DNA of 64,000 bases, from assembly GCF_019456655.1 (NCBI RefSeq), contig NZ_CP080332.1, positions 1,364,001-1,428,000 of the forward strand, written 5' to 3'. The stretch's first letter is position 1. Each line of letters opens with the position of its first letter. The notes below the pieces were generated by a model. That model had not been told where the DNA came from. It searched no databases and was given only the letters and a program-made list of their open reading frames with translations. Made by a program: the position numbers and the translations under genes. This document shows positions 42,037 to 63,410 of the stretch, piece after piece. Source of the DNA: Mycolicibacterium diernhoferi (GTDB taxonomy: Bacteria > Actinomycetota > Actinomycetes > Mycobacteriales > Mycobacteriaceae).

Positions 42037-43083
42037 CTACAGGTCGCCGGTCAGCGACACCAATTCCTCGGTGAACCGAATGGCCTCGGCATCGTCGGTG
42101 GCCAGTGGGTGCACCAGCATGGTGGTCACGCCGGCCTCCTTGTAGGCCGCCAGTCGCTCCTGGACGAAGCCACGCGGACCGACCAGTGACACCTGCCGGA
42201 CCAACTCGTCGGGCACCGCGGCGATGGCTTCGGATTTCTTGCCGGACAGGAACAGGTCCTGGATGTGATCGGCCACCTCGCCGAATCCGTACCGGGTGGC
42301 GAGGTTGTGGTAGAAGTTCTTGCCGCGTGCGCCCATGCCGCCGATGTAGAGCGCCAATTGGGGTTTGGCCCAGGCCAACCTGTCATCGAGATCCTCGCCG
42401 ATGGCAAGGCTGGCGCTGACCATGATGTCCAGCGGTCCCAGGGCCGGGTCGCGCTTGGCGTAGCCCGCGCGCAGCGCATCGCCCCACACCTCGTCGGCCT
42501 TCTCCGGGTAGAAGAACACCGGCTGCCAGCCCTGTGCGATCTCGGCGGTCAGCTCGACGTTCTTCGGTCCCAGCGCAGCGATGGTGATCGGGATGTCCTC
42601 CCGCACTGGATGATTGATGAGGCGCAGCGGTTTGCCGAGGCCGGTGCCGCGGTCGGCGGGCAGCGGGATCTGGTAGTGCTTGCCCTCGTAGTTCACCTTC
42701 TCGCGGCGCCACACCTGGCGGCAGATGTCCACCACCTCGCGGGTGCGGCCCAGCGGGGCGTCGAACGGCACCCCGTGGAAGCCCTCCATGACCTGCGGGC
42801 CGGAGGTGCCGATACCGAGCCGGAAGCGACCGTCGGAGACGTAGTCCAGCCCGGCCGCCGTCATCGCCAGCAGGGTGGGGGTGCGCACGTAGATCGGCAC
42901 CACACCGGATCCGAGCTCGATGGTCGACGTCTTGGCGGCCAGGTATCCGAGTTGGCTGATGGCGTCATAGGAGTACGCCTCGGCGACCAACGCGATATCG
43001 GCGCCGACCTTCTCCAGTTCGACGACCTGCTCGACCGCCTGTTTGAACCCGCCCGCGTAGCTCATGAAGATGCCTGTCCGCAT
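42037..43083 (-). CDS. LLM-class F420-dependent oxidoreductase
   Basis: Luciferase-like monooxygenase-fold enzyme, 348 aa, likely using coenzyme F420. Family segments: VAEAYSYDAISQLGYLAAKT, GSGVVPIYVRTPTLLAMTA, DGRFRLGIGTSGPQVMEGFHG and ITIAALGPKNVELTAEIAQG. Mycobacterial relatives (Rv3520c type) are encoded near lipid or sterol catabolism genes. The substrate is not deducible. The start ATG is 43083; a perfect palindrome (43097-43110) lies 13 bp upstream and may be its operator. Confidence 0.88.
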   Translation of the reverse strand: MRTGIFMSYAGGFKQAVEQVVELEKVGADIALVAEAYSYDAISQLGYLAAKTSTIELGSGVVPIYVRTPTLLAMTAAGLDYVSDGRFRLGIGTSGPQVMEGFHGVPFDAPLGRTREVVDICRQVWRREKVNYEGKHYQIPLPADRGTGLGKPLRLINHPVREDIPITIAALGPKNVELTAEIAQGWQPVFFYPEKADEVWGDALRAGYAKRDPALGPLDIMVSASLAIGEDLDDRLAWAKPQLALYIGGMGARGKNFYHNLATRYGFGEVADHIQDLFLSGKKSEAIAAVPDELVRQVSLVGPRGFVQERLAAYKEAGVTTMLVHPLATDDAEAIRFTEELVSLTGDL

Positions 43084-43110: not shown

Positions 43111-43251
43111 TGAGCAAGGCGGTGAGCGTCCGCACGTGTCGGGGTGTTTTCCGTTTTCGCGCCCGACAATGGCGTAAACCGATCCGACAATATCGCTCGC
43201 ACAGTTATTCTCGTCGAATATCGCAGTATGCGGGGATCGGGTGGAATTTCG

Positions 43252-43974
43252 ATGCGTAAATCGGTGGGGTTCGCACTGGCGGCGGTGCTGGCGGTGTCGT
43301 CTGTGCTGTGCATCTCCGCGGCCCGGGTGGCGGTCGCCGAGGTCGGGGCCGGCTGGTTCCCGGTCGGCGCAGTGATCGCCGGCAAGAGTCCGGATCAATT
43401 GGGCGACTGGACTGTTCGCTACGAACGCCTGGGTGGTCCGGATCCGGCCATCGTGGATTCGATCAATGCGGTGATCGACGCGGAGGCGCGCGGCCAGGTC
43501 GCCACCTACGAACCGAGCGCCACCAAGACTCAGCCCTGGACGCTCGATGTGAACGGCACCCTGTCATTCCGGGAAATCACGGTATCGGCGCTTTTCGTCG
43601 GTGAATACGACACCGATATGCCGAATATGCCGATTCACACCGTGGGTACCCGGGTATTCGACAAACGCAGCGGAATTCTGATCAGCTGGGACAATCTGTT
43701 CGTCGACAAATCGGCGGGGCTGGCCCGGATCTCGGAGCTCACCAAGGCCATCCTGCCGACCGTCTACGCACCGCCCCGCCGGCCCGGGGTGTGGCAATTC
43801 GGCAGTGAGATCGCCCCGGTCGACGCCAACTTCCGGTTCTGGATCCCCACCGCCGGCGGTATCGAACTGCACTTCCCGGACGGGCAGTTCGGCCGCGGGG
43901 CGGCGGTGATCACGGTGCCGTGGGCCGGGGTCGCCGATCTGATCGCACCGGTGTTCGGGCCGATCACCGGGTAG
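43252..43974 (+). CDS. Secreted DUF3298/RsiV-like protein
   Basis: A 240-residue exported protein. The signal peptide (residues 1 to about 29, SVGFALAAVLAVSSVLCISA) ends before EVGAGWFPVG. The mature domain has the layout of DUF3298/RsiV-type secreted proteins: LSFREITVSALFVGEYD, GTRVFDKRSGILISWDNLF and the C-terminal GIELHFPDGQFGRGAAVITV. Its function is unknown. ATG 43252 gives a clean signal peptide; longer frames do not. It overlaps the 3' end of the convergent carotenoid oxygenase by 11 bp. Confidence 0.75.
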   Translation: MRKSVGFALAAVLAVSSVLCISAARVAVAEVGAGWFPVGAVIAGKSPDQLGDWTVRYERLGGPDPAIVDSINAVIDAEARGQVATYEPSATKTQPWTLDVNGTLSFREITVSALFVGEYDTDMPNMPIHTVGTRVFDKRSGILISWDNLFVDKSAGLARISELTKAILPTVYAPPRRPGVWQFGSEIAPVDANFRFWIPTAGGIELHFPDGQFGRGAAVITVPWAGVADLIAPVFGPITG

Positions 43975-45421
43975 CCGTCGCCCCCTTGGGCTGGGCGACC
44001 CGCGGGGTGTAGCAGCCGTGGAAGCTCAGCGGCAGGTGGTGGCGCAGCTGCCCGATGTAGACGGGGCCGGCCTCGATCCTGCGGGCGTCGAAGATGTAGA
44101 GGCCGGCGGTGTTGTTGATCCCGTCCAGCACCGGTTCGATCAGCCAGCCGTCGTCCTCCTCGGTCGCGCCGGGCCGGGCGGCGAAGATCACCTCGTGCGG
44201 CAGGTGCCCGTCGGGGAACTGGAACAGGGTGTCCTTGCCGGTCTCGTTGTCGATCTTGGCCAGTGCATTGGGGAACAGGCTTCCCCCGGTGGCCGCCGAC
44301 AGGTAGAAGTACCGGTTCGGCCGGGCCATCTGGTTGATGTTGATCATCGGGAATTCGCCGGGCACGTCGGAGAACTCGTCGATCGTCACCTTCCCGGACC
44401 CGGAAACCCTCACCCGGGTGGGCAATCCACCGTAGGGCATGGTCGAGGTCTCCATCAGCGTCTCGACACCGGCCAACTGGCCGTTGAGTTGCTCCCAGGT
44501 GGCGTGGTAGTTCAGGACGTCGACCACGACGTCGCCGTTCTCGTCGTCGTAGGCGTTGGCGAAGTGCAGATGCAGCATCGGATCGGTGTGGAAGATCCGG
44601 GTTTTGCCGCCGTCCCGCGGCACCAGCGCGATCGTGGTGCCGACCGACGCTTTGTAGTCGATGGCGTCGATGTAGTTGCGCAGGCCGAACGCCGCGCCGA
44701 AGAACTTGTGCAAGGGGAACACCAACGGCGGGATGACGAAGACCAGGTACCGCTTGGTCAGGCCCATGTCGTGGTTGAACATCGGTCCGGGCAATTTGAC
44801 CTGACCGAGCCTGCTCAACTTGCCCTGACGGTCCACCCGGTAGCAGATCAACTTCGGGACCGGTGCCATCGCCAGCCCGAAGTTGAACATCTCGCCGGTG
44901 TCGCGGTCCCACTTGGGATGCGCCGAGAACGCGCCCAGCCATTTGAGTTCACCGTCGTAGTCGTACTCACCCTTGGTGCGCAGCGTGTCGGGATCGAGTT
45001 CGGTGGGCCGCCCACCCTCCCACAGCGCCAATAGCTTTCCGGCGTTCATGATGACCGAGGTGTTGGCCACGTTGGCGGGGAAGCGCAACGCATTGGCCAG
45101 CAGGCCACCGTCGCGCATGGTGCCCAGCGCGCGGAACGGCGCGCCCTCGGAGATGATCGAGCGCTGGTAGTGCTTGGTCTGGACGAACCGGTTGCGAAAG
45201 CGCACCACGCCGTCGGACATGGAGTACATCGACAGCATGCCGTCGCCGTCGAAGATGTGCCCGAGCGGGGTGCCGCCGGCCTCCATCTTTCCCGGGCCGT
45301 TGCGGTATACGGTCCCGCGTAGCTCGGCGGGCAACTCGCCGGTGACATCGTCGATCGTGTAGTCGTGCTCGTCGTAGAGCGGGGAATACACCTGGAACGG
45401 ATTGTTGTCGATGGTGGTCAT
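43964..45421 (-). CDS. Carotenoid cleavage dioxygenase (CCD family), copy 1
   Basis: Non-haem iron dioxygenase, 485 aa, that cleaves conjugated C=C bonds of carotenoids, apocarotenoids or stilbenes. Iron ligands by pattern: His168 (FSAHPKWD), His217 (MFNHDMG), His286 (LHLHFANAYDDE) and His468 (SFHGCYTPR). N-terminal family segments such as YRNGPGKMEAGG and HIFDGDGML are intact. It is the last gene of a leftward operon, 23 nt after a D27-like isomerase gene and downstream of yrbE/mce and a P450. An apocarotenoid substrate is favoured by the D27-like neighbour; lignostilbene-type cleavage is the main alternative. Confidence 0.92.
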   Translation of the reverse strand: MTTIDNNPFQVYSPLYDEHDYTIDDVTGELPAELRGTVYRNGPGKMEAGGTPLGHIFDGDGMLSMYSMSDGVVRFRNRFVQTKHYQRSIISEGAPFRALGTMRDGGLLANALRFPANVANTSVIMNAGKLLALWEGGRPTELDPDTLRTKGEYDYDGELKWLGAFSAHPKWDRDTGEMFNFGLAMAPVPKLICYRVDRQGKLSRLGQVKLPGPMFNHDMGLTKRYLVFVIPPLVFPLHKFFGAAFGLRNYIDAIDYKASVGTTIALVPRDGGKTRIFHTDPMLHLHFANAYDDENGDVVVDVLNYHATWEQLNGQLAGVETLMETSTMPYGGLPTRVRVSGSGKVTIDEFSDVPGEFPMININQMARPNRYFYLSAATGGSLFPNALAKIDNETGKDTLFQFPDGHLPHEVIFAARPGATEEDDGWLIEPVLDGINNTAGLYIFDARRIEAGPVYIGQLRHHLPLSFHGCYTPRVAQPKGATATR

Positions 45422-45444
45422 GGCGGGTTTCCTTCTCGTCAGGT

Positions 45445-46128
45445 TCAGTGGGCCGTGCGGACGCGTAGGGTGCAGCCCAGGCCGGGCAGGTGCGGGTCGA
45501 ACTCCAGCGGCATGGGTCCGCCGGCGTGAAAGACTTTCTCGCAGGCTGCCTTACAGCCCATCCGGCAGGACGCGTCCTGGGCGGTGTCCGGGCTGACGCA
45601 GGTGTGCATCGCGCATTCCGGGATCTCGTAGACCAGGGTGCCGTCCGGCTCGGTACCGGTGCGGTGGATGGGCCCGACCAGGAAGGTCGACACGCTGACC
45701 CCGAGGTCCAGCACGGTCGGGTACAGAGCCTTGGGGATCCACGGGACGACATTGAAGACCGGCAGCAGCAACCGCAGCCAGCCCCGCAGCCGGCCGGCGA
45801 CGGCGTCGGACACCAGTTCCTCGACCGCGGGCCAGGGCAGGATCCGCAGCAGTTCGGTGCTGGTCCACTCCAATTCGCGGACGAACTGCCGGTATTGACG
45901 CTGCCAGGAACGCCGCGGACTCTCGAACAGGCCACGGCGCCGACGGCGTTCGCTCACCAGTGCGGCCCAGTTCTTTTCGACCGCGTCGCGATCGTCGGTG
46001 ACAACCCGCAGCAGCGGCAGGAACACCGTCTCGGGTAGGTCGCCGACCCGCTTGAGCATGGAGTGCATCAGCCATTCGTCGCGCAGCGCGGTGAGCGGGC
46101 CGATCTCGGTGCTGAGAGTGGTTGTCAT
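45445..46128 (-). CDS. DWARF27-like (DUF4033) beta-carotene isomerase candidate
   Basis: A 227-residue protein whose C-terminus carries the cysteine pattern of the D27 family. Cys172 and Cys177 are followed by Cys188-x3-Cys192-x3-Cys196, F200, a G-x-P-x-P-L stretch (GGPMPLEFDP) and Cys219. Plant D27 is an iron-containing all-trans/9-cis-beta-carotene isomerase acting before CCD7, and shows the same C-x3-C-x3-C, F, G-P-L and C order. The N-terminal 160 residues are helical and basic (SERRRRRGL). It lies between the Mce genes and a CCD, 15 nt and 23 nt from its neighbours. Assignment is by motif only; the substrate is unknown. Confidence 0.65.
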   Translation of the reverse strand: MTTTLSTEIGPLTALRDEWLMHSMLKRVGDLPETVFLPLLRVVTDDRDAVEKNWAALVSERRRRRGLFESPRRSWQRQYRQFVRELEWTSTELLRILPWPAVEELVSDAVAGRLRGWLRLLLPVFNVVPWIPKALYPTVLDLGVSVSTFLVGPIHRTGTEPDGTLVYEIPECAMHTCVSPDTAQDASCRMGCKAACEKVFHAGGPMPLEFDPHLPGLGCTLRVRTAH

Positions 46129-46143
46129 GGGCGCTTCTTTCTG

Positions 46144-47433
46144 TTACCACTGCCCGCCCTGGAGAATGGGCTCAGACTCCGGGGGAAGTTGCGGTCCGCC
46201 ATACGGCAGTTCGATGGTGTGCTCGGTGATCGGGGTGGGGTCGGCGCGCCGGAGCGGATCGAGGCCCGGCGGGGGCAGCGCGGTGTCGTCGCCCGCCGGT
46301 CGCGGCGCGTTACGGGCGCCGCGGACCAACAGGTTGGGATCCGGGTTCTGGCAGTAGGTGTAGAGATACGGTTCCGGGTAGTTCGGGATGAACGGCACAT
46401 CGCGCGGATGCGGGTAGTCGCACACCGGTCGGGGATAGATGTCGGCGATCGCCCAGATCGCACCGTCGTGCATCAGCGACCGGATGCCGTTGAGCAGCGG
46501 CTGACGGTCTTCGCTGAACATCCTGTCCAGAGCCGGAACCCGGACATAGGACAACTGCGACACCGTGGTCAGGTCGCCGAGCAACTGCACCATGGTGGGG
46601 GAGTTGTCCGCGATCACGGTGTCCACGGTCTGCAGCAGATGCGGGGTGCGGTCGAGCAACGTCCGGATCCCGGCGTCCTTGGCGCCGATACCGCCGAGTG
46701 TGACGGCCAGATTGTCCGAGGTGGCCTGCAGCCCCGCCGAGGATTCGTCGAGCAACCGGAAGACGCTGCGGCTGCTGCGCAGCAATGTCGTGGTCTGCGG
46801 CAGCACCCCGTCCAGGGTGTTGAGCAACAGTTGGGCGCCGTTGAACAGGTCGCGCAGCTTCTCCGGTCCCTGATCGCTGACGCCGAGTTCGTCGATGACG
46901 GAACTGATCTGGGCTGGATCGGCCTGGGCCAGCACGCCGTCGACGTTGGTCAGCAGGCGCCATAGTGGGATCGGGGTCTCGGTGTGGTCGCGGTCGATCA
47001 CCGTGTCGTCGGCCAGGAACGGGCCGCTGGTGTGTTGCGGGGCGAAATCCAGGTACTGCTCCCCGGCCGGGGAGAGCCCGGAGACCCGGACGGTGGTGTC
47101 CTGGAGCGGGATGCGGGCGTCACCGTCGATCACCGCGGTGGCGAGCACCCCGTCGCCGGTGACCTCCACGGACTGCACCCGGCCGACCGGGATACCCCGC
47201 ACGGTGACGTCCTGTCCGGCCAGCAATCCACCGGACTCGGCCAGGTCCACCCCGACGGTGATCTGGCTGTCGAACGGGTTGATCCGTAGCGATCCGAACG
47301 CCAGATAGGAGGCGCCGACGACGACCAGCAGGCACTGGCCGACCACCGAGAGCAGGAGCCGACGCGACGTCGCGGTCTCCACCGCGCGAATGGCGAATGC
47401 CGACAGGGGATTCAGCACGCTTCGGATGCTCAT
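46144..47433 (-). CDS. MCE-family protein, sixth of operon (MceF)
   Basis: Last of six MCE-domain proteins that form a periplasmic lipid-transfer conduit. 429 aa: one N-terminal membrane helix (about residues 24-45, SVVGQCLLVVVGASYLAFG), an MCE domain (VGVDLAESGGLLAGQDVTVRG, PVGRVQSVEV), a helical region, and a Pro-rich C-terminus with a Tyr/Pro segment (PRPVCDYPHPRDVPF) typical of MceF. ATG overlaps the mceE stop by 4 nt. The paralogue class (mce1-8) cannot be assigned from this sequence alone. Confidence 0.9.
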   Translation of the reverse strand: MSIRSVLNPLSAFAIRAVETATSRRLLLSVVGQCLLVVVGASYLAFGSLRINPFDSQITVGVDLAESGGLLAGQDVTVRGIPVGRVQSVEVTGDGVLATAVIDGDARIPLQDTTVRVSGLSPAGEQYLDFAPQHTSGPFLADDTVIDRDHTETPIPLWRLLTNVDGVLAQADPAQISSVIDELGVSDQGPEKLRDLFNGAQLLLNTLDGVLPQTTTLLRSSRSVFRLLDESSAGLQATSDNLAVTLGGIGAKDAGIRTLLDRTPHLLQTVDTVIADNSPTMVQLLGDLTTVSQLSYVRVPALDRMFSEDRQPLLNGIRSLMHDGAIWAIADIYPRPVCDYPHPRDVPFIPNYPEPYLYTYCQNPDPNLLVRGARNAPRPAGDDTALPPPGLDPLRRADPTPITEHTIELPYGGPQLPPESEPILQGGQW

Positions 47434-48545
47434 TGTGGCGGCCCCCAGATCCGGCCCCGGTCCGGGCCCCACACCCGGTCGCCGAGCTGGGTCAGCACGA
47501 ACCGGATGGAACCGACCATGTTGTCCCAGTTGGCCTGCTTGGGGCCGGTGAACCCCGGGTCGGCGTAGTGGTTCATGTCGCCGATGTGCCCGAGCGCGAC
47601 CTGCTGCAGCTCGACATCGGCCCCGGCGGCGTTGCTGCTGAAGAACTTCATCGCCGCGGGCAGGAAGCGCAGGAAGTTCGCCATGGTCACCCGCGGGTCG
47701 GTGGACACCTCGTTGAAGGCCGCCGACAGGGCGTTCAGATCGCGGATCCAGCTGCGGGTGTCGGTGCCCTGGATCGCCGGGAACTTCTGCAGCGCGGTGG
47801 TCACCCGGCCGATCTCGTCGGCCAGGTCCGCCATTGCGGAGGTGTTGTTCGCGATGGTCATCAGCGCCGGCGCCGAGGCGTCCAGCAGATCGTTGATGGT
47901 GTCCCGGCGCGCGTTGAGATCGTCGGCCAGGTCGGCGGTCTGGGTGAGCATGGTGCGGATCTCGTCGGAGCGCTCGGCCATCGTGGACACCAGCGCCCGG
48001 GATTCGCGGATCAGGCTGGACAGGCCCTCACCCTCCTTGCCGAGCGCCCCGCCGACCCCGTTGAGTACCCGGGTCAGGTTCCGGACGACGCCGCCGTTGA
48101 CGATCATCGACGTGGTGGCCAGGACCTGCTCGATCGTGGCGGCCGCCGCGGTGTCCTGCTGCGGGATCCGGTCTCCGTCGGCGAGCACACCGCCGGCGGC
48201 ACCGGCAGGGGGAGTGAGGGAGACGAACACATCGCCCAGCGGTGTCGCCGAACGCAACTCGGCGGTGGTGCCCTCGGGCAGCCGGATGCCGTCCAGGATG
48301 CGCAGCGCTACGACGGCGGTGTAGTCGACCGCCGTCATACCGACCACCTCGCCGACATCGGCGCCGCCAACCCGGACCTTCGCGCGGTCCGGCAGGTTGA
48401 GTGCATTGGTGAACTCGGCGTCGAGTCGATAGGTGGGCCCGCTCAACCCGGGCGCGGGCAGCGGTAGTTGTTCGACGCCTGCCGAGCAGCCCACTGCCGC
48501 AACCGCTACCAGGGCGCCGACGGCGGCGCGCACACCGACCGTCAT
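47430..48545 (-). CDS. MCE-family lipoprotein (MceE / LprN type)
   Basis: Fifth MCE protein and the lipid-anchored one. The signal ends in the lipobox VAAVGC (Cys20), so it is a lipoprotein. 371 aa, with the MCE segment PDRAKVRVGGADVGEVVGM and long helical sequence. MceE proteins are lipoproteins in every mycobacterial mce operon, supporting a complete, functional set. Four-nt overlaps on both sides. Confidence 0.92.
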   Translation of the reverse strand: MTVGVRAAVGALVAVAAVGCSAGVEQLPLPAPGLSGPTYRLDAEFTNALNLPDRAKVRVGGADVGEVVGMTAVDYTAVVALRILDGIRLPEGTTAELRSATPLGDVFVSLTPPAGAAGGVLADGDRIPQQDTAAAATIEQVLATTSMIVNGGVVRNLTRVLNGVGGALGKEGEGLSSLIRESRALVSTMAERSDEIRTMLTQTADLADDLNARRDTINDLLDASAPALMTIANNTSAMADLADEIGRVTTALQKFPAIQGTDTRSWIRDLNALSAAFNEVSTDPRVTMANFLRFLPAAMKFFSSNAAGADVELQQVALGHIGDMNHYADPGFTGPKQANWDNMVGSIRFVLTQLGDRVWGPDRGRIWGPPQ

Positions 48546-49648
48546 TGCTCACCCAGTTTCGTCATGGCGTCCAGCACGCTGGTCACCCCGAAGTCGGGTC
48601 CCAGATCACGGATGGATCCGGTGCGGCAACCCAGTTGGCGCAGGCCGAGGATGTTGCAAACTTCCTTGGTCATCGAGCTGTCGAAGAAGACGTTGTCGAA
48701 ATGGGCGCCGACGCGCAGCATCCCGTTCTGCATGTCGATCGCGGCGGAGGCGTTGTCGATGGCCAGCGGCGCCACGTCGAAGACCTCGGCGAGTTCCCGG
48801 CGGTAGTCGACCAGCGCCCGGGTCAGCCTGCCGCTGCTGGCGAGACTGTTCTTGAGGGTGTCCCCGTGGTCGCTGAGCAGGGTATTGAGTTTGTCGAGCA
48901 GGCTGTTGACCCGGGTGCCGGTGGCGCCCCGCCCGACACCCTCGGCGGCCATCAGATCGGTGAGTTGCCTGACATAGGAGCCGAATTCGCGGACCTGCGT
49001 CTCGTTGCGGGCCGCGCCGTCGGTCAGCGTGCTGAGGTTGGTCAGGATGGTCTCGAGGTTCTGCTTGGTGGCGGCACCGCCGTCGGCCCCGGTGCGCAAC
49101 GCATCCGAGAGGCCGGCCAGGGCGGCCTTGATCTCGGGCCCGCTGGTGGAGGTGATCCCGGAGGTGGCCGACATCAGGTCGGCCAGCGGGCCGGCGCCCT
49201 CGCCGTCGCCGCCCATGGCGCCGCCCAGTTTGTCCACCATCGCCAGGACCCGGTCGAATTCGATGGGGGTCCTGGTGGATTGCGCGTCGAGGACGGCCCC
49301 GTCGGCCAATACCTGCCCACCGGAGTAGGCGGGGGTGAGTTCGACGTGGCGGTCGGTGAGGATGGAGGTGCCGACGGTGACGGCGGTGACATCGGCGGGA
49401 ATGTCGACACCCGGGTCGATCTCGATGTCGACGTCGACGTGCGCACCCCGATTCTCGATCGCGGTCACCCTGCCGACCGGCATGCCGAGTACCGATACGT
49501 CGTTGCCGACATACAGGCCGATGGCATTGTCGAACTGGGCGGTGAAGCGCAGTGGTTCGGCCGGGGTGGGGCGGAATACGTAGGCGCCCGCGACGACCAG
49601 CGCCACCGCGGTGAGCAGTGCCGCAATCAGAACGGTCCGTCGGGTCAT
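48542..49648 (-). CDS. MCE-family protein (MceD)
   Basis: Fourth MCE protein, 368 aa. One N-terminal membrane helix (TVLIAALLTAVALVVAGAYV), an MCE domain (AQFDNAIGLYVGNDVSVLGM, PVGRVTAIENRG) and helical C-terminal region. ATG 49648 overlaps the mceC stop by 4 nt. Role: subunit of the hexameric or tubular Mce lipid shuttle together with the YrbE permeases. Confidence 0.9.
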   Translation of the reverse strand: MTRRTVLIAALLTAVALVVAGAYVFRPTPAEPLRFTAQFDNAIGLYVGNDVSVLGMPVGRVTAIENRGAHVDVDIEIDPGVDIPADVTAVTVGTSILTDRHVELTPAYSGGQVLADGAVLDAQSTRTPIEFDRVLAMVDKLGGAMGGDGEGAGPLADLMSATSGITSTSGPEIKAALAGLSDALRTGADGGAATKQNLETILTNLSTLTDGAARNETQVREFGSYVRQLTDLMAAEGVGRGATGTRVNSLLDKLNTLLSDHGDTLKNSLASSGRLTRALVDYRRELAEVFDVAPLAIDNASAAIDMQNGMLRVGAHFDNVFFDSSMTKEVCNILGLRQLGCRTGSIRDLGPDFGVTSVLDAMTKLGEQ

Positions 49649-50691
49649 TTGCAGTCCTTGAAGTACTGGTAGCGCTCCGGCCACTTCCACTGCTCGGCGC
49701 GGCCACTGATGGCGCACATCCAGGAATCCACCATCAGCCCGCCCGGCAGCATGAAGTCCAGGAACGGACCGGATCCGGTGGCGTTGGCGGCGTTGCGCAT
49801 CGCCACCGGCATGATCTGGAACAGGTTGCGCAGCAGCGCGTCATGGTCACCGAGCATGGCGGTGACCTGCTGTAGATCGGTCAGCAGCGCCTCGATCTGG
49901 GTGTAGTCGGAGCCGATGATCTCGTCGGCGGTGGTGATGAGTGTGGTGGCCGCCCGCAGCAGGCGTTCGACACCGGCACGGCGGCGGACGATCTCGCCGG
50001 TGAGTTCACCGCCCGCGATGATGAGTTCGGCCAGATCGTCGCGCTGCCCACCCAGGATCTCGGCGACCGTGGCGGTGTTGCGCAGCAGATCCGCGATCTG
50101 ATCACGCCGGTCGGAGATGATGGCCGACAGGCTCTGGACATTGGACAGCGCGTCCGGCAGCACCGCGGGCACCCCGGTGAGCTGCTGGGACAGCGTCTGC
50201 ATCGAGGTGGCGAACTGCTCGGCGTCCACGTCCTCGAACGTCGTGGTCGAATCGGTCAGCAGCTTCTGCAGGTCGTAGGGGACGGAGGTGTGCGACAACG
50301 GGATTCGGTCGCCGGGCAGGGTGCGCTCGCCGCGGGGGCGTAGCTCGACATACCGCGACCCGAGCACCGTGGTCAGTTTGATCGCGGCCTTGGTCTCGGT
50401 GCCCAGCCGCACACCGTTGTCCAACTCCATGGTGACGATGACGCGGTTGACCGCGAGCTTGGTGGCGCTGACCAGGCCGACCGGGACACCGGCGATGCTG
50501 ACCTGATCACCCGGGCGCAGGCTGGCGGCCTGCAGGAACTCGGCGGTGTAGGTCCGTTTCCCGATGTGCAGCGCGTTGAGCCCGGTGGTCGCCGCGATCA
50601 CGGCGACCAGCACGATGAGCGCGACGGTGCCGATCACGGCCCGGTTGCGGTCTTCGAGAGCTTTTGATCGACCGAATGTCACTCGACTCAC
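49645..50691 (-). CDS. MCE-family protein (MceC)
   Basis: Third MCE protein, 348 aa. One membrane helix (VIGTVALIVLVAVIAATTGL), then the MCE domain (TAEFLQAASLRPGDQVSIAG, PVGLVSATKLA). The start is GTG 50691, chosen for its 4-nt overlap (GTGA) with mceB; other in-frame GTGs are at 50697 and 50682. A C-terminal Cys/Trp-rich tail (WMCAISGRAEQWKWPERYQY) resembles other MceC-type proteins. Confidence 0.9.
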   Translation of the reverse strand: MSRVTFGRSKALEDRNRAVIGTVALIVLVAVIAATTGLNALHIGKRTYTAEFLQAASLRPGDQVSIAGVPVGLVSATKLAVNRVIVTMELDNGVRLGTETKAAIKLTTVLGSRYVELRPRGERTLPGDRIPLSHTSVPYDLQKLLTDSTTTFEDVDAEQFATSMQTLSQQLTGVPAVLPDALSNVQSLSAIISDRRDQIADLLRNTATVAEILGGQRDDLAELIIAGGELTGEIVRRRAGVERLLRAATTLITTADEIIGSDYTQIEALLTDLQQVTAMLGDHDALLRNLFQIMPVAMRNAANATGSGPFLDFMLPGGLMVDSWMCAISGRAEQWKWPERYQYFKDCK

Positions 50692-51752
50692 CTGCACTTC
50701 GCCGAATACTTGCGCTGACCACCCGGGGTGGCGGCGTTGACGATCGTCGGGACGATCGGTCTGAGGAAGTTGAACAGCGTGAAGTTGAAGTCACACGCCG
50801 TCGCGCTCATCGCGGTGGAGTCCCCGGTGATGCGCGACAGCCCCTTGAGCACGGCGGGCAGATTCGAACCGAGCGTGGCCCACCCATCGCGGTTGGCCAC
50901 CATGGAGGCCAACATCCCGGGCTCCCGGGCGAGCAGTTCGTGCAGGTCGGGTTGGGCCGCGCTGGTGATCGCCGACAGGCGGGACACCACCGCCGCGATC
51001 GACCCGGTCGACTGCACCAACTGGTCACGGCGGGCGTTGAGCCCGGTGACCACCGACCGCATCTGGGTCAGGGTGGTCTGCAGGTCGGTGCCGCGCGAGG
51101 CCAGATTCGCGGTGACGGCGTTGAGGCTGTCGATCACCCGGCCGAGGACCTGGTCGGGGCCCGCCATCGACTGCGCGAGCTCGGAGGTCTGCGACACCAG
51201 CATCACCACGGAGTCCGAATCACCCTGCAGCGCATTGATCAACGCGTTCGACAGGTTGCCGCGGTTCGTCGGATCGAGCAGGGTGAACATCGGTTCGAAA
51301 CCGTTGAGCAGGGCGGTGACATCGAAGGAGGGCTCGGTGCGCTCCACCGGGATCACCGCGCCGTCGGAGAGCCGTTCGGGCCGGCCGAAGTCCGCCAGGG
51401 TCAGCCCGATGTAGCGCTGGCCGATGATGTTCTGGTAGACGACCGCGGCCTTGGTGTTGCCGTACAGCGGCTGGTCGCGCTGCACCCGGAAACGCACGGT
51501 GGCCAACGGTTCCGCGTTCGGACCGGACTCGTCGAGGCTGACCTCGTCGACGCGGCCCACCCGGACACCGGCCACCCGGACGTCGGAGCCCGCACGCAGT
51601 CCGGTGACATCGGTGAACTGTGCGGTGTAGGTGAAGGTGTCACCGTGTACGTCTCGGCGCAGCGTCACCAGGATCATCCAGGTCAGGGTCAGGCATACCG
51701 TCAGGAAGGCGATGAGCCAGATCAGCTTCCGTGAGCGCGAACGTGTGGTCAT
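50688..51752 (-). CDS. MCE-family protein (MceB)
   Basis: Second MCE protein, 354 aa. N-terminal membrane helix (LIWLIAFLTVCLTLTWMIL), MCE domain (AQFTDVTGLRAGSDVRVAGV, RVGRVDEVSLD), helical middle and a short basic C-terminus ending KYSAKCR. ATG 51752 overlaps the mceA stop by 4 nt. Confidence 0.9.
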   Translation of the reverse strand: MTTRSRSRKLIWLIAFLTVCLTLTWMILVTLRRDVHGDTFTYTAQFTDVTGLRAGSDVRVAGVRVGRVDEVSLDESGPNAEPLATVRFRVQRDQPLYGNTKAAVVYQNIIGQRYIGLTLADFGRPERLSDGAVIPVERTEPSFDVTALLNGFEPMFTLLDPTNRGNLSNALINALQGDSDSVVMLVSQTSELAQSMAGPDQVLGRVIDSLNAVTANLASRGTDLQTTLTQMRSVVTGLNARRDQLVQSTGSIAAVVSRLSAITSAAQPDLHELLAREPGMLASMVANRDGWATLGSNLPAVLKGLSRITGDSTAMSATACDFNFTLFNFLRPIVPTIVNAATPGGQRKYSAKCR

Positions 51753-53029
51753 GGCGTTCCCGGGGGCTGCTCGCCGTGCTGGTGCGGGCCGGGAACGAAC
51801 TCGGCCGGTGCGGGCGGCACCTGCAGGGTGTTCTGCAGCACCGCCTCGGCCGGGTTGGCCGGTGCGGGCAGGGTGATCCCGGGTGGCGGGACGTAGGCAC
51901 GCGGATCGGGCAGGCCGCGGGTGTCCACGACCGGGATGCCCTCGGGCGCGGTATCGCAACTCGGTCCGCGCAGTTCCCGGTATCTCGGGCAGTCCGCGCG
52001 GTTGTACAGCCGCAGCGGCGCCAGCGAGACGACGAGTTTGAACTTGAACGTCAGCTTCTGCCCGGTGCGCGTCCACATCTCGGCGAAGAATCCGTTGACG
52101 ACGTCGTTCAACCCGACGGCGATGGCCGGGAACATGGCGCCGCGCTCGGCCAGGACCCCGATCACCGGCGTCAGATGGGTGGTGATGTCCACCATCTGGT
52201 CCGCGCGGTTGTCCATCGCGCTGCCCACGGTGCCCGCGGTGTGGCGCGCTCCGGTCAGCAGATCGCTCAGCGCCGAGTGCTGTTCGGCGACGGTGTGCAT
52301 CGGTGTGACCGCGGCCTGCAGTGAGTCCAGCAGGTCGGGCGCGGTGGCCCCGAGTGCGTCGATCGCCGAGTTCCAGGTCTGCAGCGTCGACTCCCCGGTG
52401 CCGTCGGTGCGCAACTCGTTCATCTCGGTGACGATCCGATTGAGACCCTGTGCCGCCGAGGTCAGTTCGGGACCCCTACCGGCGGTCGCGTCGGCGATCG
52501 TGCGCAGCACGCCCAGGGTGTGATCGGTGCCGGGCCGCCCCACCGCGGCGACGAGTTCGCGGACCTTGGCCAACGTGGTCTGGAACAGCTGGGTGGGCAA
52601 CGCGGTGTCGGCGGTGATGACGTCACCGGCCCGCAACGGCGGCCCGTCCCCGTTCTCGACCAGCTGCACGGTGGACACCGCGAAGGCGTTGCCGGGCACG
52701 ATGCGGGCGGTCACGGTGTTGGGGATGGCGGTGACGTGACCGGGCTGCAGGTCGATGGTGACCACGTTGTCCCCGCCGCCCAGCGCCGGGCTGACCGATC
52801 GGACCGCGCCGACCAGAACGCCGCGGTACTTGACGTCCGATTTCGGTGGCAGGCCGTCACCGACGCTGGGCAGCGTCGCGATGATCGGCACCCGACGATC
52901 CAGTGCGCCGGTCGATTTCGCGAACATCAGCGATCCGACCAGCGCACACACCAGCAGGAAGGCCAGGCAGGTGAGCGTCAGGGCGCGTTCGGAGGGACCG
53001 CGGCCGTCCATTTCGAACCGGTTGGGCAT
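51749..53029 (-). CDS. MCE-family protein (MceA)
   Basis: First MCE protein, 426 aa. Membrane helix (LTLTCLAFLLVCALVGSLMF), MCE domain (IATLPSVGDGLPPKSDVKYR, LVGAVRSVSPA), helical region, and a Pro-rich C-terminus (PPPGITLPAPANPAEAV) typical of MceA. The ATG shares one base with the stop of the upstream yrbE gene. With the other five Mce proteins it should form the periplasmic path for a hydrophobic substrate. Confidence 0.9.
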   Translation of the reverse strand: MPNRFEMDGRGPSERALTLTCLAFLLVCALVGSLMFAKSTGALDRRVPIIATLPSVGDGLPPKSDVKYRGVLVGAVRSVSPALGGGDNVVTIDLQPGHVTAIPNTVTARIVPGNAFAVSTVQLVENGDGPPLRAGDVITADTALPTQLFQTTLAKVRELVAAVGRPGTDHTLGVLRTIADATAGRGPELTSAAQGLNRIVTEMNELRTDGTGESTLQTWNSAIDALGATAPDLLDSLQAAVTPMHTVAEQHSALSDLLTGARHTAGTVGSAMDNRADQMVDITTHLTPVIGVLAERGAMFPAIAVGLNDVVNGFFAEMWTRTGQKLTFKFKLVVSLAPLRLYNRADCPRYRELRGPSCDTAPEGIPVVDTRGLPDPRAYVPPPGITLPAPANPAEAVLQNTLQVPPAPAEFVPGPHQHGEQPPGTP

Positions 53030-53883
53030 CAGCCGCCGAGCCTCCCGCCGGAGTCGACACCCCAGAACGCCATGGTGAGCATCATGTTGGTGACGACCAT
53101 CAAGGTGATGCTCAGCCGCATCGCCCGGCCGGCCGCGATGCCGACACCCTGGGGGCCGCCGGCGGCGTAGAAGCCGTAGTAGCACTGCACCGTCGACATG
53201 ATCGCCACGAACACAGCCACTTTGATCACCGCGAAGACCATGTCCCGCCCGGACAGCATCAGCGTGAAGTAGTGCAGATAGGTTCCCGATGCCTGGCCGC
53301 TGGCCAGGAAGACGACCAACTGGCAGACCAGGAAGTTCAGGGCCAGACAGACCACGAACAGCGGGATGACCGCCATTGCCGATGCCAGTACCCGGGTGGT
53401 GACCAGATAGGGGATCGGCCGGATGGCCACCGCGTCCAGCGCGTCGATCTCCTCGGAGATCCGCATGGCGCCCAGTTGTGCGGTGAACCGGCAGCCGGCC
53501 TGGATCGCAAAGGCCAAGGCCGCCATCATCGGTGCCAGTTCGCGCACCGTGGCCAGCGCGGTGAGCAGTCCGGTGGCCGGCCCCAGGCCGAGCAGGTTCA
53601 GCGCGTTGTAACCCTCGATGGCCACCACGGCTCCGGCGGCGGCGCCCACCACGAGCACCACACCGGCCGTCCCGCCACCCACCACGATCGACCCGTTGCC
53701 CCAGGTGACGTCGGAGGACAGTCGCAGGAACTCGCGCGGGTACCTCTTCAGCACGATCGGGATGCCGGCCAGCGTGCGGAAGAAGAACGCCACGATATGG
53801 CCGTTGCGGGCCATCTGGTATCCGGTCGCCTGCGCGGCGCCGACCAGTGGGCGGGTGCCGAGGGGGTAGTGGATGGCGGCCAT
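53029..53883 (-). CDS. YrbE/MlaE-family ABC permease, second copy
   Basis: Membrane permease of the Mce system, 284 aa with about five helices, MlaE family. The conserved segment GCRFTAQLGAMRISEEIDAL (cytoplasmic loop with E-E and D) interacts with the Mla/Mkl-type ATPase, which is encoded elsewhere. It follows the first yrbE after a single base and leads into mceA. Confidence 0.93.
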   Translation of the reverse strand: MAAIHYPLGTRPLVGAAQATGYQMARNGHIVAFFFRTLAGIPIVLKRYPREFLRLSSDVTWGNGSIVVGGGTAGVVLVVGAAAGAVVAIEGYNALNLLGLGPATGLLTALATVRELAPMMAALAFAIQAGCRFTAQLGAMRISEEIDALDAVAIRPIPYLVTTRVLASAMAVIPLFVVCLALNFLVCQLVVFLASGQASGTYLHYFTLMLSGRDMVFAVIKVAVFVAIMSTVQCYYGFYAAGGPQGVGIAAGRAMRLSITLMVVTNMMLTMAFWGVDSGGRLGG

Positions 53884-53884
53884 G

Positions 53885-54739
53885 TCAGAAGCTCGTCTTG
53901 GGGACCAGGATCAAATACATCTGGCTGATCAGGGTGTTGGTCAGCAGGAGCAGCAGAATGGATTGCACGACAGCGGCATTCACCGAGTTGGCGACGCCGG
54001 CGGGCCCGCCGGTGGCGTCGAGTCCCTTGTAGCAGGCGATGACGGCGACGATCACCCCGAAGACCACGGCCTTGATCAAGGTGATGACCAGATCGTCGAC
54101 GGTGGCGAACGAGGAGAAGGTGGTGGTGTAGCTGCCCGGCGTCCCGCCCTGCAGCATGACGGTGAAGGCGTAGCCCGCCAGAAAGCCGATGAAGCAGGTG
54201 AATCCGGTCAGCGCCACCGAGACGATGACGGCGGCGGCCAGCCGGGGGACCACCAGGCGCCGGATCACCGAGATGCCCATCACCTCCATCGCGTCCGTCT
54301 CTTCCCGGATCGTGCGGGCGCCGAGGTCGGCGCTCATCGCCGAGCCGACGGCGGCGGCCATCAGGATCGCGGCGACCAGGGGTGCCCCCTGCTTGATCAC
54401 GGCCAGCCCGTTGGCTGCGCCGGCCAGTGCGGTGGCGCCGAGTTGTCCTGCCAGCAGGCTGAATTGGACGGCGAGGGTCACGCTGATCGGGATGGCGATG
54501 AACAGCGTCGGCACCACCGCGGTACGGGCCATGAAGACGGCCTGGTCGACGAACTCCCAGAACGGGAACCGGCCCCGCACCATATCGCCGAACAGGTACT
54601 GGAACGTGCGGACCGCGAGGACACATTGCCCGCCGACGGTGCGCAGCGATGCCAGCGGGTGCCGGTGCAGGTACCCCCGCCACCACCGCACGACCCGGTC
54701 GGTCGCGTCGTGGGTGTCCGCCGGACCGGACGTGGGCAC
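53885..54739 (-). CDS. YrbE/MlaE-family ABC permease, first copy
   Basis: Partner permease, 284 aa. The MlaE signature is SADLGARTIREETDAMEVMG. The start is GTG 54739, only 2 nt beyond the P450 stop, so the P450 belongs to the same transcript. This order (P450, yrbE, yrbE, mceA-F) makes an oxidising enzyme the promoter-proximal gene of an import operon, which suggests that the imported compound is a P450 substrate. Confidence 0.92.
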   Translation of the reverse strand: MPTSGPADTHDATDRVVRWWRGYLHRHPLASLRTVGGQCVLAVRTFQYLFGDMVRGRFPFWEFVDQAVFMARTAVVPTLFIAIPISVTLAVQFSLLAGQLGATALAGAANGLAVIKQGAPLVAAILMAAAVGSAMSADLGARTIREETDAMEVMGISVIRRLVVPRLAAAVIVSVALTGFTCFIGFLAGYAFTVMLQGGTPGSYTTTFSSFATVDDLVITLIKAVVFGVIVAVIACYKGLDATGGPAGVANSVNAAVVQSILLLLLTNTLISQMYLILVPKTSF

Positions 54740-54741
54740 GG

Positions 54742-56010
54742 TCAGTTCGCCTGGAAGGTCAGGTGCAGTCGTTTGAGTCCGCGCAGCATGAAGCTGGGCT
54801 CGTATTCGAGATCGTTGTCTTGGGCGAGTTCGACGGAGCTGAACCGGCGGGCGATGTCCTCCAACGCGATTCGGGCCTGCAGGCGCGCCAGCGCGGCGCC
54901 CAGGCAGGAATGGATACCCTGGCCGAACGCCAGATGGGTCTTGGCGTTCGGGCGTTGCGGGTTGAACTTCTCGCCGTCCTCGAAGTGCGCTTCGTCGCGG
55001 TTGGCGGAGCCGAAGACCAGCACCACCAGCGAGCCTGCCGGGATGGTGTAGCCGCCGAGCTCGGCCTCGGCCTTGGTGATCCGGAACATCGACTGCACCG
55101 GGGTGAGGAAGCGCAGTGACTCCTCGACGAGCAGCTCGGAGCGCGGGCCGGGGTCCTCCTGCAGCCAGGTCCACCACGTCGGGTCGGCCGCCAGCTGGTG
55201 CAGGGTGCCGGTCATCAGCTTGCGGGAGGTCTCGTTTCCGGCGATCAGGATCTGCTGGATGATGCTCAGCGCGGCCCCGGTGGTCAGCGGTTCGTCGTCA
55301 TTGGCGTTCGACGCCTGGACGAGCCCGGTGAGCAGGTCGTCCTGCGGGGCGGTGCGGCGGTCCTCGAGCTCGGCGGCGAAGTACCGCTGGTATTCGAGCA
55401 GGCTGCGGGCCTGCTCGAGGGCACCGGCGTCATCGATCTCGGCGCCGATGGTCAACGCGAACTGATCGGACCAGCGCCGGAAGTCGTCGATGCGAGCGTC
55501 GGGGACGTTGAGGGCCTGCGCGATGACCCGCAACGGGAGCGGCGCGGCGAACTGTTCGACGAACTCCACCGGTTCGCCGACCGGCAGCGCGTCGAGCAGC
55601 TGGGTGACGATCGAGCGGATGGTGGGTTCACGCTGCGCGACGAACTTCGGGGTGAACGCGCGGGCCACCATCCGGCGGTAGTAGTGGTGATCGGGCGGGT
55701 CGGCGGTCAGCAGGGTGGGGATCATGTCCCAGCCCTGTGCCTTGAGCGATTCGACCTCGGCGGCGACCGACGCCGGCGGGGGCATCTGGGGCAGCCCGAA
55801 CGCGGAGGAGAACACCTCGTGATCGCTGAGCGCCTGCGCCACCAGGTCCCGGGCGGTGACGAACCACATGCCCCGCTCCGCCACGAAGTGCACCGGCGCT
55901 TCCTTGCGCAGCGCCTGGTACCAGGGGTGCGGCACCTGCATCGTCTGTGGGTCCAGCGGGTCGAACGACCCGATCGGGCACTTGGCGGGCGGGCTGGCGA
56001 TCTCGGTCAA
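54742..56010 (-). CDS. Cytochrome P450
   Basis: Soluble bacterial haem monooxygenase, about 422 aa. Visible motifs: I-helix IAGNETSR, K-helix ExxR (EESLRF), and the haem loop FGQGIHSCLGAALARLQ with Cys369. The start is TTG 56010, preceded by GGAG and a 6-nt spacer, giving MTEIASPPAKCPIGSFDP; a longer frame begins at GTG 56064 without a ribosome-binding site. It is the first gene of the yrbE/mce/D27-like/CCD operon and diverges from an SDR gene at the operator near 56080. It probably oxidises a compound imported by this Mce system. Confidence 0.92.
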   Translation of the reverse strand: MTEIASPPAKCPIGSFDPLDPQTMQVPHPWYQALRKEAPVHFVAERGMWFVTARDLVAQALSDHEVFSSAFGLPQMPPPASVAAEVESLKAQGWDMIPTLLTADPPDHHYYRRMVARAFTPKFVAQREPTIRSIVTQLLDALPVGEPVEFVEQFAAPLPLRVIAQALNVPDARIDDFRRWSDQFALTIGAEIDDAGALEQARSLLEYQRYFAAELEDRRTAPQDDLLTGLVQASNANDDEPLTTGAALSIIQQILIAGNETSRKLMTGTLHQLAADPTWWTWLQEDPGPRSELLVEESLRFLTPVQSMFRITKAEAELGGYTIPAGSLVVLVFGSANRDEAHFEDGEKFNPQRPNAKTHLAFGQGIHSCLGAALARLQARIALEDIARRFSSVELAQDNDLEYEPSFMLRGLKRLHLTFQAN

Positions 56011-56066: not shown

Positions 56067-56092
56067 TTGACTAATTGGTGGACCAATATAAT
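56067..56092. promoter_or_regulatory. Bidirectional promoter with palindromic operator
   Basis: The perfect palindrome ATTGGTGGACCAAT (56074-56087) lies between TTGACT (56067-56072) and TATAAT (56087-56092) on the plus strand. The minus strand reads TATTAT at 56087-56092. The 14-nt hexamer spacing is short, so one element may be fortuitous. The position midway between the divergent P450 and SDR genes marks it as the control point of both arms, likely bound by the TetR at 58376. Confidence 0.65.
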
Positions 56093-56146
56093 AGTGATGT
56101 GGGTCATAATCAAGCGTGGCCAACCAGCTTGGGAAGCGAGGGAGCG

Positions 56147-56932
56147 GTGCCGACAGCAGTGGTGACAGGGGCAGGCAGAGGTATCGGCCGGGCCATTGCG
56201 GAACGACTCGCGGCCGGCGGTGCCGACGTCGTCGTGGTGGACATCGACCCTGCTGCCGCCGCCGCCGTGGCCTCCGCGATCGGCGCCCGGGCGGTCGCCT
56301 GCGATGTCACCGCGGAGGGTTCGGTGGCCGCGCTGGCCGACCAGCTCGGCGAGATCGACGTCCTTGTCAACAATGCCGGTATCTGGCGGTCGAACACCCT
56401 GGCCGACAGCACCGTCGCCGACGTCGAGGCGGTGCTGCGGGTCAATGTGCTGGGCAGCTGGCTGGTCACCCGGGCGCTGATCGGCAACTTCGCACCCCGC
56501 GGGGGTGCCATCGTGAACCTGACGTCGGTGCTCGCCGAACTCGGCGGCGCCGGGCGCGGGATCTACCCGGCATCGAAAGCCGCGCTCGTCGCACTCACCA
56601 AACAGATGGCGACCGAGTATGCGCCACAACGTATCCGGGTCAACGCCGTGGGTCCCGGCCTGGTCCTCACCCACGGCACTGCGGGCGAGTTCGCCGACCC
56701 GGGACTGCGCTCGGCCATCGGTGACTCCATGCCGCTGGGCCGCATCGGCGAGCCCGCGGACGTCGCGGCGGCGGTGGCCTTCCTGGCATCGGCGGACGCC
56801 GGCTACATCACCGGGCAGGTGCTCTATGTGGACGGGGGCTGGGGCATCAACGGATCGGCGTTCATCGGCACCGCCGTGGAGCAGTACATCGCAGGACTGG
56901 CCGCACAACCCATGACCGAGGAGGCACGGTGA
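56147..56932 (+). CDS. Short-chain dehydrogenase/reductase
   Basis: Classical SDR, 261 aa, oxidising or reducing an alcohol or carbonyl with NAD(P). Cofactor motif TGAGRGIGRA (TGxxxGxG), NNAG in LVNNAGIWR, catalytic Ser region NLTSVLAELG and YxxxK (YPASK). An acidic residue after strand 2 (VVVDIDPA) favours NAD. The GTG start at 56147 follows GAGGGAG. It is the first gene of the rightward arm and overlaps the Rieske gene by 4 nt (GTGA). Confidence 0.93.
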   Translation: MPTAVVTGAGRGIGRAIAERLAAGGADVVVVDIDPAAAAAVASAIGARAVACDVTAEGSVAALADQLGEIDVLVNNAGIWRSNTLADSTVADVEAVLRVNVLGSWLVTRALIGNFAPRGGAIVNLTSVLAELGGAGRGIYPASKAALVALTKQMATEYAPQRIRVNAVGPGLVLTHGTAGEFADPGLRSAIGDSMPLGRIGEPADVAAAVAFLASADAGYITGQVLYVDGGWGINGSAFIGTAVEQYIAGLAAQPMTEEAR

Positions 56933-60411: not shown

Positions 60412-60446
60412 CGAATCGTGTTCAGCCACATGTGAGGAGACGTTCT

Positions 60447-63358: not shown

Positions 63359-63378
63359 GATGAAGCCCTTCTTGTTTG

Positions 63379-63410
63379 GGCGATCGCCTAACATCAGACT
63401 GGGCATATGC
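63379..63410. promoter_or_regulatory. Divergent control region, TauD-like / TetR
   Basis: Contains the perfect palindrome GGCGATCGCC (63379-63388) and a second, GCATATGC (63403-63410), within the 133-bp gap between the divergent dioxygenase and TetR genes. Either may be the TetR operator. Confidence 0.4.

Follow-up and report, generated by a model that had tools for sequence, protein, structure and literature searches.

The genome of Mycolicibacterium diernhoferi contains a conserved locus in which an Mce importer is combined with enzymes of the carotenoid-cleavage dioxygenase (CCD) family and with a distant relative of DWARF27 (D27), the protein that catalyzes the first step of strigolactone synthesis. 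We analyzed this locus within a window of 64,000 nt (positions 1,364,001 to 1,428,000 of contig NZ_CP080332.1, part of a single-contig genome of 5,998,503 bases), and coordinates are those of the window unless another source is named. The locus is real and conserved, apparently regulated and of catabolic type, and it has two arms: a leftward arm that runs from a cytochrome P450 gene through yrbE and mce genes to the D27-related gene and a first CCD gene (CCD1), and a divergent arm that ends with a second one (CCD2). Judging from the protein families encoded, its function is probably the catabolism of (apo)carotenoids linked to Mce import. The original prediction had described an operon at 43964-56010; its eleven genes are present, and the locus is larger than first noted, as the divergent arm, which reaches 61904, also belongs to it.

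A remote bacterial relative of D27

The 227-aa Cys-rich protein encoded at 45445-46128 (minus strand) had been proposed to be D27-like, with a search against the D27 profile PF13225 as the check. On its own, the protein gave no match at E <= 10 (gathering score 27 bits) and so does not count as a member of PF13225; scanned directly against Pfam and NCBIfam it also gave nothing, and no further domain was recognized. When PF13225 was run over 61 genomes, nothing exceeded the cut-off. Weak matches appeared in 10 genomes, and the best two (E 0.011 and 0.106, in G022 and G012) were the C-termini of members of this same family.

A profile search for relatives of the protein recovered at least 100 proteins with identities as low as 29%, among them one that carries the label Halioglobus. 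We built a narrow-family profile (A1) from the 227-aa protein and 38 of 57 matches, a wider-family profile (A2, 51 members) from the protein and 50 of the 100 listed proteins (7999 candidates scored), with the fragments P0057 and P0100 and the majority of close relatives excluded, and a plant profile (A3) from 21 of the 120 plant D27 proteins listed, out of 496 found. PF13225 was matched by 31 of the 51 wider-family members at E <= 10 (best 2.3e-4), while no other Pfam family was matched by more than two of them. Aligned with hhalign, the wider family and the 21 plant proteins gave a probability of 93% (E 3.3e-7) over the C-terminal 81 columns. With hmmsearch at E < 1, the wider-family profile found every one of the 120 plant D27 proteins, 93 of which also passed E < 1e-3 (best 1.6e-7), but not one of 240 decoys made by reversal or shuffling. 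The narrow-family profile found 51 of the plant proteins at E < 1, and none of these passed 1e-3. The family-level PF13225 matches, the hhalign alignment and the decoy-controlled search together argue for homology that is real, if remote, and on these sequence comparisons we regard the 227-aa family as a D27 homologue. The D27-like assignment thus stands as a remote relationship of the family, and not as strict PF13225 membership.

D27 has previously been reported from plants, algae and cyanobacteria. According to passages of a 2024 report that characterized the cyanobacterial protein CaD27, 22 of 204 cyanobacterial genomes have D27, whereas BLAST gave no D27 genes in prokaryotes outside cyanobacteria (PMC11449226). 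Among titles and abstract openings, with subscription papers mostly outside, we found no report of a D27-like protein from bacteria other than cyanobacteria, no Mce operon described with a carotenoid oxygenase, and no description of the combined P450/Mce/D27-like/CCD locus, in agreement with the original prediction. In their 2007 survey of mce operons, Casali and Riley do not use the terms P450, carotenoid or dioxygenase in the main text (PMC1810536). An island of M. massiliense published in 2014 was considered as an earlier description and rejected: in the passages that give positions, its mce operon lies at ~991 kb and the listed carotenoid oxygenase at 2,886 kb, far apart.

Shared cysteines and predicted fold

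The protein contains C188-x3-C192-x3-C196, F200, G204-P-M-P-L208 and C219, so that the pattern C-x3-C-x3-C, F, G-P-x-P-L, C is present as it had been described. As a feature common with D27, the C-x3-C-x3-C motif does not hold. In the profile alignment the registers are shifted by one cysteine, with C196 facing a Ser in D27 and C182 of D27 facing Q184, and the residues that pair are C172, C188, C192-K193, P212 and C219 with D27 C174, C186, C190-K191, P210 and C217. C172, C188, C192, K193, P212 and C219 are invariant in all 51 members of the wider family (to ~30% identity), and their plant partners are kept in 21 of 21 proteins, except for C174 (20 of 21, the remaining sequence having a gap). 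Of the 51 members, 39 retain C196, and 26 retain P153, which is part of an LVGP stretch and common to the close family and D27. The bacterial family also differs from D27 in having an invariant H175 and E197 where D27 has Leu and Gln, and in having no Cys partner for C182, C238 and C242 of D27.

Eight conserved cysteines have been described in saffron D27 proteins (PMC9504799, where they are printed as cytosines), and passages of the same paper cite the iron content and the inhibition by silver as indications that D27 has a 4Fe-4S cluster. Because D27 has been reported with conserved cysteines and with these indications, the four shared cysteines, C172, C188, C192 and C219, are the best candidates for metal or Fe-S ligands.

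The AlphaFold model of the 227-aa protein has a predicted local distance difference test (pLDDT) score of 91.6, and the order of secondary-structure elements in its C-terminal part equals that in the plant D27 model. Among the listed fold neighbors, which include many repeats of few proteins, 47 of 50 entries for the 227-aa model are TRAPP, H-NOX/guanylate cyclase, BcsD, YslB or MopR/DmpR, and 49 of 50 entries for the plant D27 model belong to the same protein groups. BcsD and YslB belong to the V4R/H-NOX/TRAPP fold group, and the two predicted folds, which share solved-structure neighbors, may resemble that group. For the plant protein itself (models m14fef0ddded2 and m43a816379c33 compared), the prediction indicates that D27 may have a V4R/H-NOX/TRAPP-like fold, for which no report was found by title or abstract opening. 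Profile searches against solved structures gave noise for A1 (tRNA-lysidine synthetase, E 0.092) and A2 (apolipoprotein E, E-value 0.098), the plant D27 profile matched no chain of the PDB copy at E <= 10, and Foldseek found nothing among viral models at E < 1.

Conservation and loss of the locus

A scan of named genomes found relatives of the 227-aa protein at 18 loci. The order P450-yrbEA/B-mceA-F-D27-like-CCD is found in 16 of these, from Mycobacterium, Mycolicibacter, Mycolicibacillus and Nocardia (L019 is counted although it starts at mceC, its contig end), and the arrangement is therefore not due to chance. The nearest relative within the set is the Mycobacterium aurum locus (L016), with protein identities of 84-99%. 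The two exceptions are L023 from M. sp. UM_WGJ, which has the D27-like gene, a TetR gene and a scrap of mceF, and L033 from a metagenome-assembled genome of Acidimicrobiia, with no Mce, P450 or CCD gene in the fetched stretch.

Within the genus of the window the D27-like gene is patchy, being found in 17 of 396 sampled genomes, two of which have truncated copies (G012 and G421). All 15 full-length genes lie beside Mce genes (G551, whose locus is cut at mceC by the contig end, is included). A CCD1 orthologue (E <= 1e-120) is present in 22 of the 396 genomes: the 15 with a full-length D27-like gene and Mce genes, the two with truncated copies, and five without a D27-like gene. In all seven CCD1 genomes that lack an intact D27-like gene, no Mce gene was found in the ~7-35 kb upstream (least in G495). 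The D27-like gene and the importer are thus mostly kept and lost together, and the persistence of CCD1 where both are gone pairs the D27-like gene with the importer. In some lineages the locus decays: truncated D27-like genes beside a CCD1 orthologue lie at 9524-9586 of L056 and 13459-13953 of L058, with no Mce gene seen upstream.

In wider samples, profile A2 matched 2 of 148 genomes from the class Acidimicrobiia and, with six candidates scored per genome, at least 2 of 396 genomes from the phylum, both belonging to the genus of the window. Among 100 relatives sampled first, 5 matches were obtained, of which one was marginal (G076, with E 0.001, 25% identity and an internal stop). One genome of the Acidimicrobiia class sample (G228) carries two D27-like genes ~27 kb apart (L053 16869-17606, minus strand, and L052 9242-9877). 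The L053 copy, whose aligned stretch contains a single in-frame TAG, and a CCD gene of 34% identity to CCD2 (17793-19148, plus strand) are arranged head to head, a pairing that provides an independent hint.

A divergent second arm and a conserved element between the arms

The second arm reads rightward (plus strand). It comprises a short-chain dehydrogenase (SDR; 56147-56932; TGAGRGIG and YPASK), the alpha subunit of a Rieske ring-hydroxylating oxygenase (56929-58326; PF00355, PF00848), a TetR-family regulator, the proposed repressor of both arms (58376-59008; PF00440), an aldehyde dehydrogenase (ALDH; 59029-60411; PF00171) and CCD2 (60432-61904; PF03055 match at G000:1424495-1425859), which overall is similar to lignostilbene dioxygenases. 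For the SDR we favor the GTG at 56147 as the start, since the listed TTG at 56075 falls within the conserved element between the arms; 10 of 13 relatives align from residues 19-28 of the listed ORF. In 13 upstream stretches from other genomes (12 mycobacteria and one Nocardia), SDR and Rieske genes diverge from the P450 gene in 12, the TetR gene is present in 11, CCD2 in seven and a close relative of the ALDH in four; L060 has all second-arm genes except the ALDH. Two Nocardia loci, L020 and L028, have a TetR gene of 62-64% identity on the opposite side, beyond CCD1. Beyond CCD2 in the window there follow genes for a peroxidase-related protein (61901-62500, minus strand) and a TauD-like dioxygenase (62525-63406, minus strand), neither of which showed a relative in the 13 upstream stretches.

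The element is a conserved candidate promoter/operator of 31 bp, TTGACT-AATTGGTGGACCAAT-ATAATAGTGA, that in the window reads TTGACTAATTGGTGGACCAATATAATAGTGA (56067-56097, plus strand) and includes the dyad ATTGGTggACCAAT at 56074-56087. Both strands carry promoter-like hexamer pairs, spaced by 17 bases, that overlap the element; the minus-strand pair extends to 56113. As a scan for such pairs gave 3 sites in 19 kb, with 1.6 expected, it is the conservation of the element and not the scan that provides evidence for a promoter. The element was found with 0-1 mismatch in 14 of 14 P450-SDR stretches, including the window (13 mycobacteria and one Nocardia), although the pattern used, with five free positions and one that is two-fold, came from the same stretches in which it was counted; outside the element, the P450-SDR spacer varies in length and sequence. 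It occurs once in the window and in none of 100 shuffles. The scan covered 31 sources: besides the 14 stretches, L077 matched with 3 mismatches and L085 with 1, and the pattern was absent from 15 (L020, L024, L028, L030 and L031 have no P450-SDR spacer). In L086, TetR and CCD1 are present and the element was not found.

The variants observed are of several kinds. L060 has a dyad altered on both sides (ATTAGT...ACTAAT), L074 has arms 1.4 kb apart with one copy of the element per arm, and L077, in which SDR and Rieske genes were not found, has a decayed TTGACT part and an intact dyad. G469 lacks the Mce block, and there the element lies between TetR and CCD1. The simple reading is that a TetR repressor would act on both arms.

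The two CCDs and the source of the substrate

CCD1 (43964-45421, minus strand) matches PF03055 (RPE65) with 400.6 bits (cut-off 27). Its best solved relative is the Synechocystis apocarotenoid-15,15'-oxygenase (ACO, 2biw), with 227 bits compared with 117 for the lignostilbene dioxygenase LSD1. H168, H217, H286 and H468 align with 2biw H183, H238, H304 and H484, which bears out the earlier claim of a CCD with all four iron histidines; we take these residues to bind iron. The LALWEGG stretch is also as in ACO. The likeness to ACO thus extends to all four histidines, but the score is just 227 bits over 485 residues. For CCD2 the best solved relatives are lignostilbene-type dioxygenases (5v2d, 5j53 and 6xm6; LSD1 and CAO1), with 243-282 bits. 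It falls below three equivalog cut-offs (375.4 of 800, 310.6 of 675 and 275.9 of 650 bits); for the lignostilbene dioxygenase equivalog NF053778 (cut-off 800), neither CCD1 (171.5 bits) nor CCD2 (375.4) qualifies. Unlike LSD1, CCD2 has in the alignment Leu and Met at the positions of the Tyr and Lys that in LSD1 presumably bind the phenol. The whole genome has eight PF03055 genes, two of which are in tandem at G000:C1 5732208-5735373, far from the locus.

Among 22 carrier genomes, a phytoene synthase match was found in 8, and the same 8 have a crtI match over the cut-off; without the two truncated-copy genomes, 7 of 20 carriers have both synthesis genes. The other 14 of the 22, all of the window's genus and with Mycolicibacter nonchromogenicus (L029, G364) among them, have no phytoene synthase match, and their crtI-family matches are below the cut-off, as are those seen in every control genome. 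Because of these 14, the substrate is probably external in most carriers. Carotenoids or apocarotenoids would be the likeliest substrate class, because an ACO-like CCD occurs together with a D27 relative.

The original prediction left open a strigolactone-like biosynthetic route beside a catabolic one. A cell could convert its own carotenoids into a strigolactone- or abscisic acid-like signal that the Mce system exports or recycles; the kinds of enzyme match the plant route, and the window's genome has a phytoene synthase gene and a crtI-family gene over the cut-off, side by side. However, most carriers appear to have no endogenous carotenoid supply, the importer travels with the D27-like gene, and Mce systems are held to be importers. 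We therefore rejected strigolactone synthesis as the main explanation and consider endogenous apocarotenoid synthesis very unlikely; the catabolic half of the earlier inference is the better one.

Proposed pathway and its alternatives

We propose, with moderate confidence, a TetR-controlled, two-armed locus for the uptake and oxidative breakdown of an external hydrophobic polyene, most likely an (apo)carotenoid. Without inducer, the TetR protein would sit on the dyad between the arms and block both promoters, as the conserved element suggests. The YrbE/Mce complex, a transporter by homology, would import the substrate, and the D27-related protein, with a predicted V4R/H-NOX/TRAPP-like fold and a putative metal or Fe-S site at the four shared cysteines, would shift the polyene between trans and cis, an activity suggested by its homology. 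CCD1, as an ACO-like non-heme iron oxygenase, would then cleave the isomer to aldehydes, CCD2, to judge from its family, may add a second cut, and the P450, Rieske, SDR and ALDH enzymes would hydroxylate and oxidize the fragments, in some order, for entry into central catabolism.

Several observations weigh against this proposal. With the narrow family, hhalign gave a probability of 5.6%; the plant profile, run against the 100 bacterial proteins, found 6 at E < 1, none of which passed 1e-3 (best E 0.019); L023 breaks the joint retention of the D27-like gene and the importer; CCD2 scores best with lignostilbene-type dioxygenases; and the fold neighbors of the 227-aa model include proteins that bind ligands, such as H-NOX (heme) and Bet3 (covalent palmitate in one entry).

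The ligand-binding neighbors would fit a D27-related protein that is not an isomerase but binds ligands or transfers electrons, for example a sensor, or an intracellular carrier that passes the lipid from the importer on to CCD1. The presence of MopR/DmpR aromatic sensors among the neighbors of the plant model, the placement of the gene between importer and CCD, and the incomplete retention of P153 in the wider family are also consistent with such a role. However, the four cysteines together with Lys193 and Pro212, common with D27 and invariant in the family, resemble a catalytic or metal site, and the 227 residues contain no further recognized domain; we consider a carrier or sensor less likely than not.

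The CCD2 scores are in line with the import and catabolism of another hydrophobic alkene, such as a stilbenoid, a lignan, a diterpenoid or a sterol side chain, which CCD1 and CCD2 would cleave and the D27-related protein would isomerize or carry. Mce systems are known to transport sterols and fatty acids, and the P450, Rieske, SDR and ALDH proteins belong to generic catabolic families. Mce4 has been linked with cholesterol in passages of one report (PMC4263727). Against a substrate of this kind stand the closer match of CCD1 to ACO than to LSD1 (227 vs 117 bits) and the Leu and Met of CCD2 in place of the LSD1 Tyr and Lys. Characterized D27 proteins, CaD27 among them, also act on carotenoids to our knowledge, and we rate a non-carotenoid alkene as rather improbable.

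With the Mce4 cholesterol and Mce1 fatty-acid systems the locus has in common YrbEA, YrbEB and MceA-F in the same order, and P450 neighbors are also present at the mycobacterial cholesterol locus, whereas the genes of the present importer are flanked by a D27-related gene and CCDs. Like D27 systems, the locus has a CCD-family gene adjoining the D27-related gene, but this gene is located in an Mce operon and most of its carriers have no carotenoid synthesis genes.

Organization of the leftward arm and neighboring genes

Neighbors among the eleven leftward ORFs overlap by 1-10 bases or are separated by 1-23 bases, which together with the Pfam assignments confirms the compact, P450-first arrangement and the linked YrbE/Mce importer described earlier. 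The P450 (54742-56010, 422 aa, TTG start; PF00067) contains FGQGIHSCLG, ESLR and AGNET in its translation, which we read as the heme, ExxR and I-helix motifs, and has no close solved relative (best PDB score 216 bits). It is followed on the same (minus) strand by two permeases, of YrbEA type (53885-54739, putative GTG start at 54739; PF02405, 205.4 bits) and YrbEB type (53029-53883; PF02405, 191 bits), and by six Mce-type proteins: MceA (51749-53029, putative ATG start at 53029), MceB (50688-51752, start taken from the translation), MceC (49645-50697, with TIGR00996 over its cut-off), MceD (48542-49648, start taken from the translation), MceE (47430-48545, with a lipobox-like AVGC) and MceF (46144-47433). 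All six match PF02470, and all except MceD also PF11887. One operon thus has two MlaE permeases (PF02405) and six MlaD proteins (PF02470), as in an Mce ABC importer. The five internal junctions of mceA-F are overlaps of 4-10 bases, and the widest gaps of the arm, 15 and 23 bases, lie on either side of the 227-aa gene. No Mkl/MceG ATPase is encoded among the eleven genes, the rest of the genome not having been searched for one; passages of the 2007 survey describe this ATPase gene as unlinked to mce operons in mycobacteria (PMC1810536). In the window no Rfam family reached its gathering score, and no tRNA was found.

Downstream of CCD1 lies a gene for an LLM-class F420-dependent oxidoreductase (42037-43083, minus strand; TIGR03559, 529.9 bits), a possible accessory gene. 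It adjoins CCD1 in 7 of the 18 loci, and it is directly beside CCD1 in three of the five genomes without the D27-like gene and Mce block and in both genomes with a truncated D27-like gene. Convergent with CCD1 is a 242-aa ORF without a Pfam match (43246-43974, plus strand) that recurs in 12 of the 18 loci, all 12 mycobacterial, and in none of the five from Nocardia.

Significance

As a bacterial D27 relative with a confident model and just four cysteines in common with D27, the 227-aa protein offers a handle on the metal ligands and mechanism of D27. A broader proposal, which we regard as possible rather than probable, is that the non-photosynthetic branch of D27 (Mycobacteriaceae, Nocardia, Acidimicrobiia and the Halioglobus-labelled protein) would be a catabolic Fe-S polyene isomerase, with dedicated Mce import of foreign (apo)carotenoids by mycobacteria that make none themselves, followed by isomerization and cleavage, the four cysteines being the cluster ligands of all D27 proteins and D27 belonging to the V4R/H-NOX/TRAPP group. 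Few substrates are known for Mce importers. If the proposed pathway is true, carotenoids or apocarotenoids would be named as the substrate class of one such importer, and mycobacteria would be able to use pigments that they do not make.

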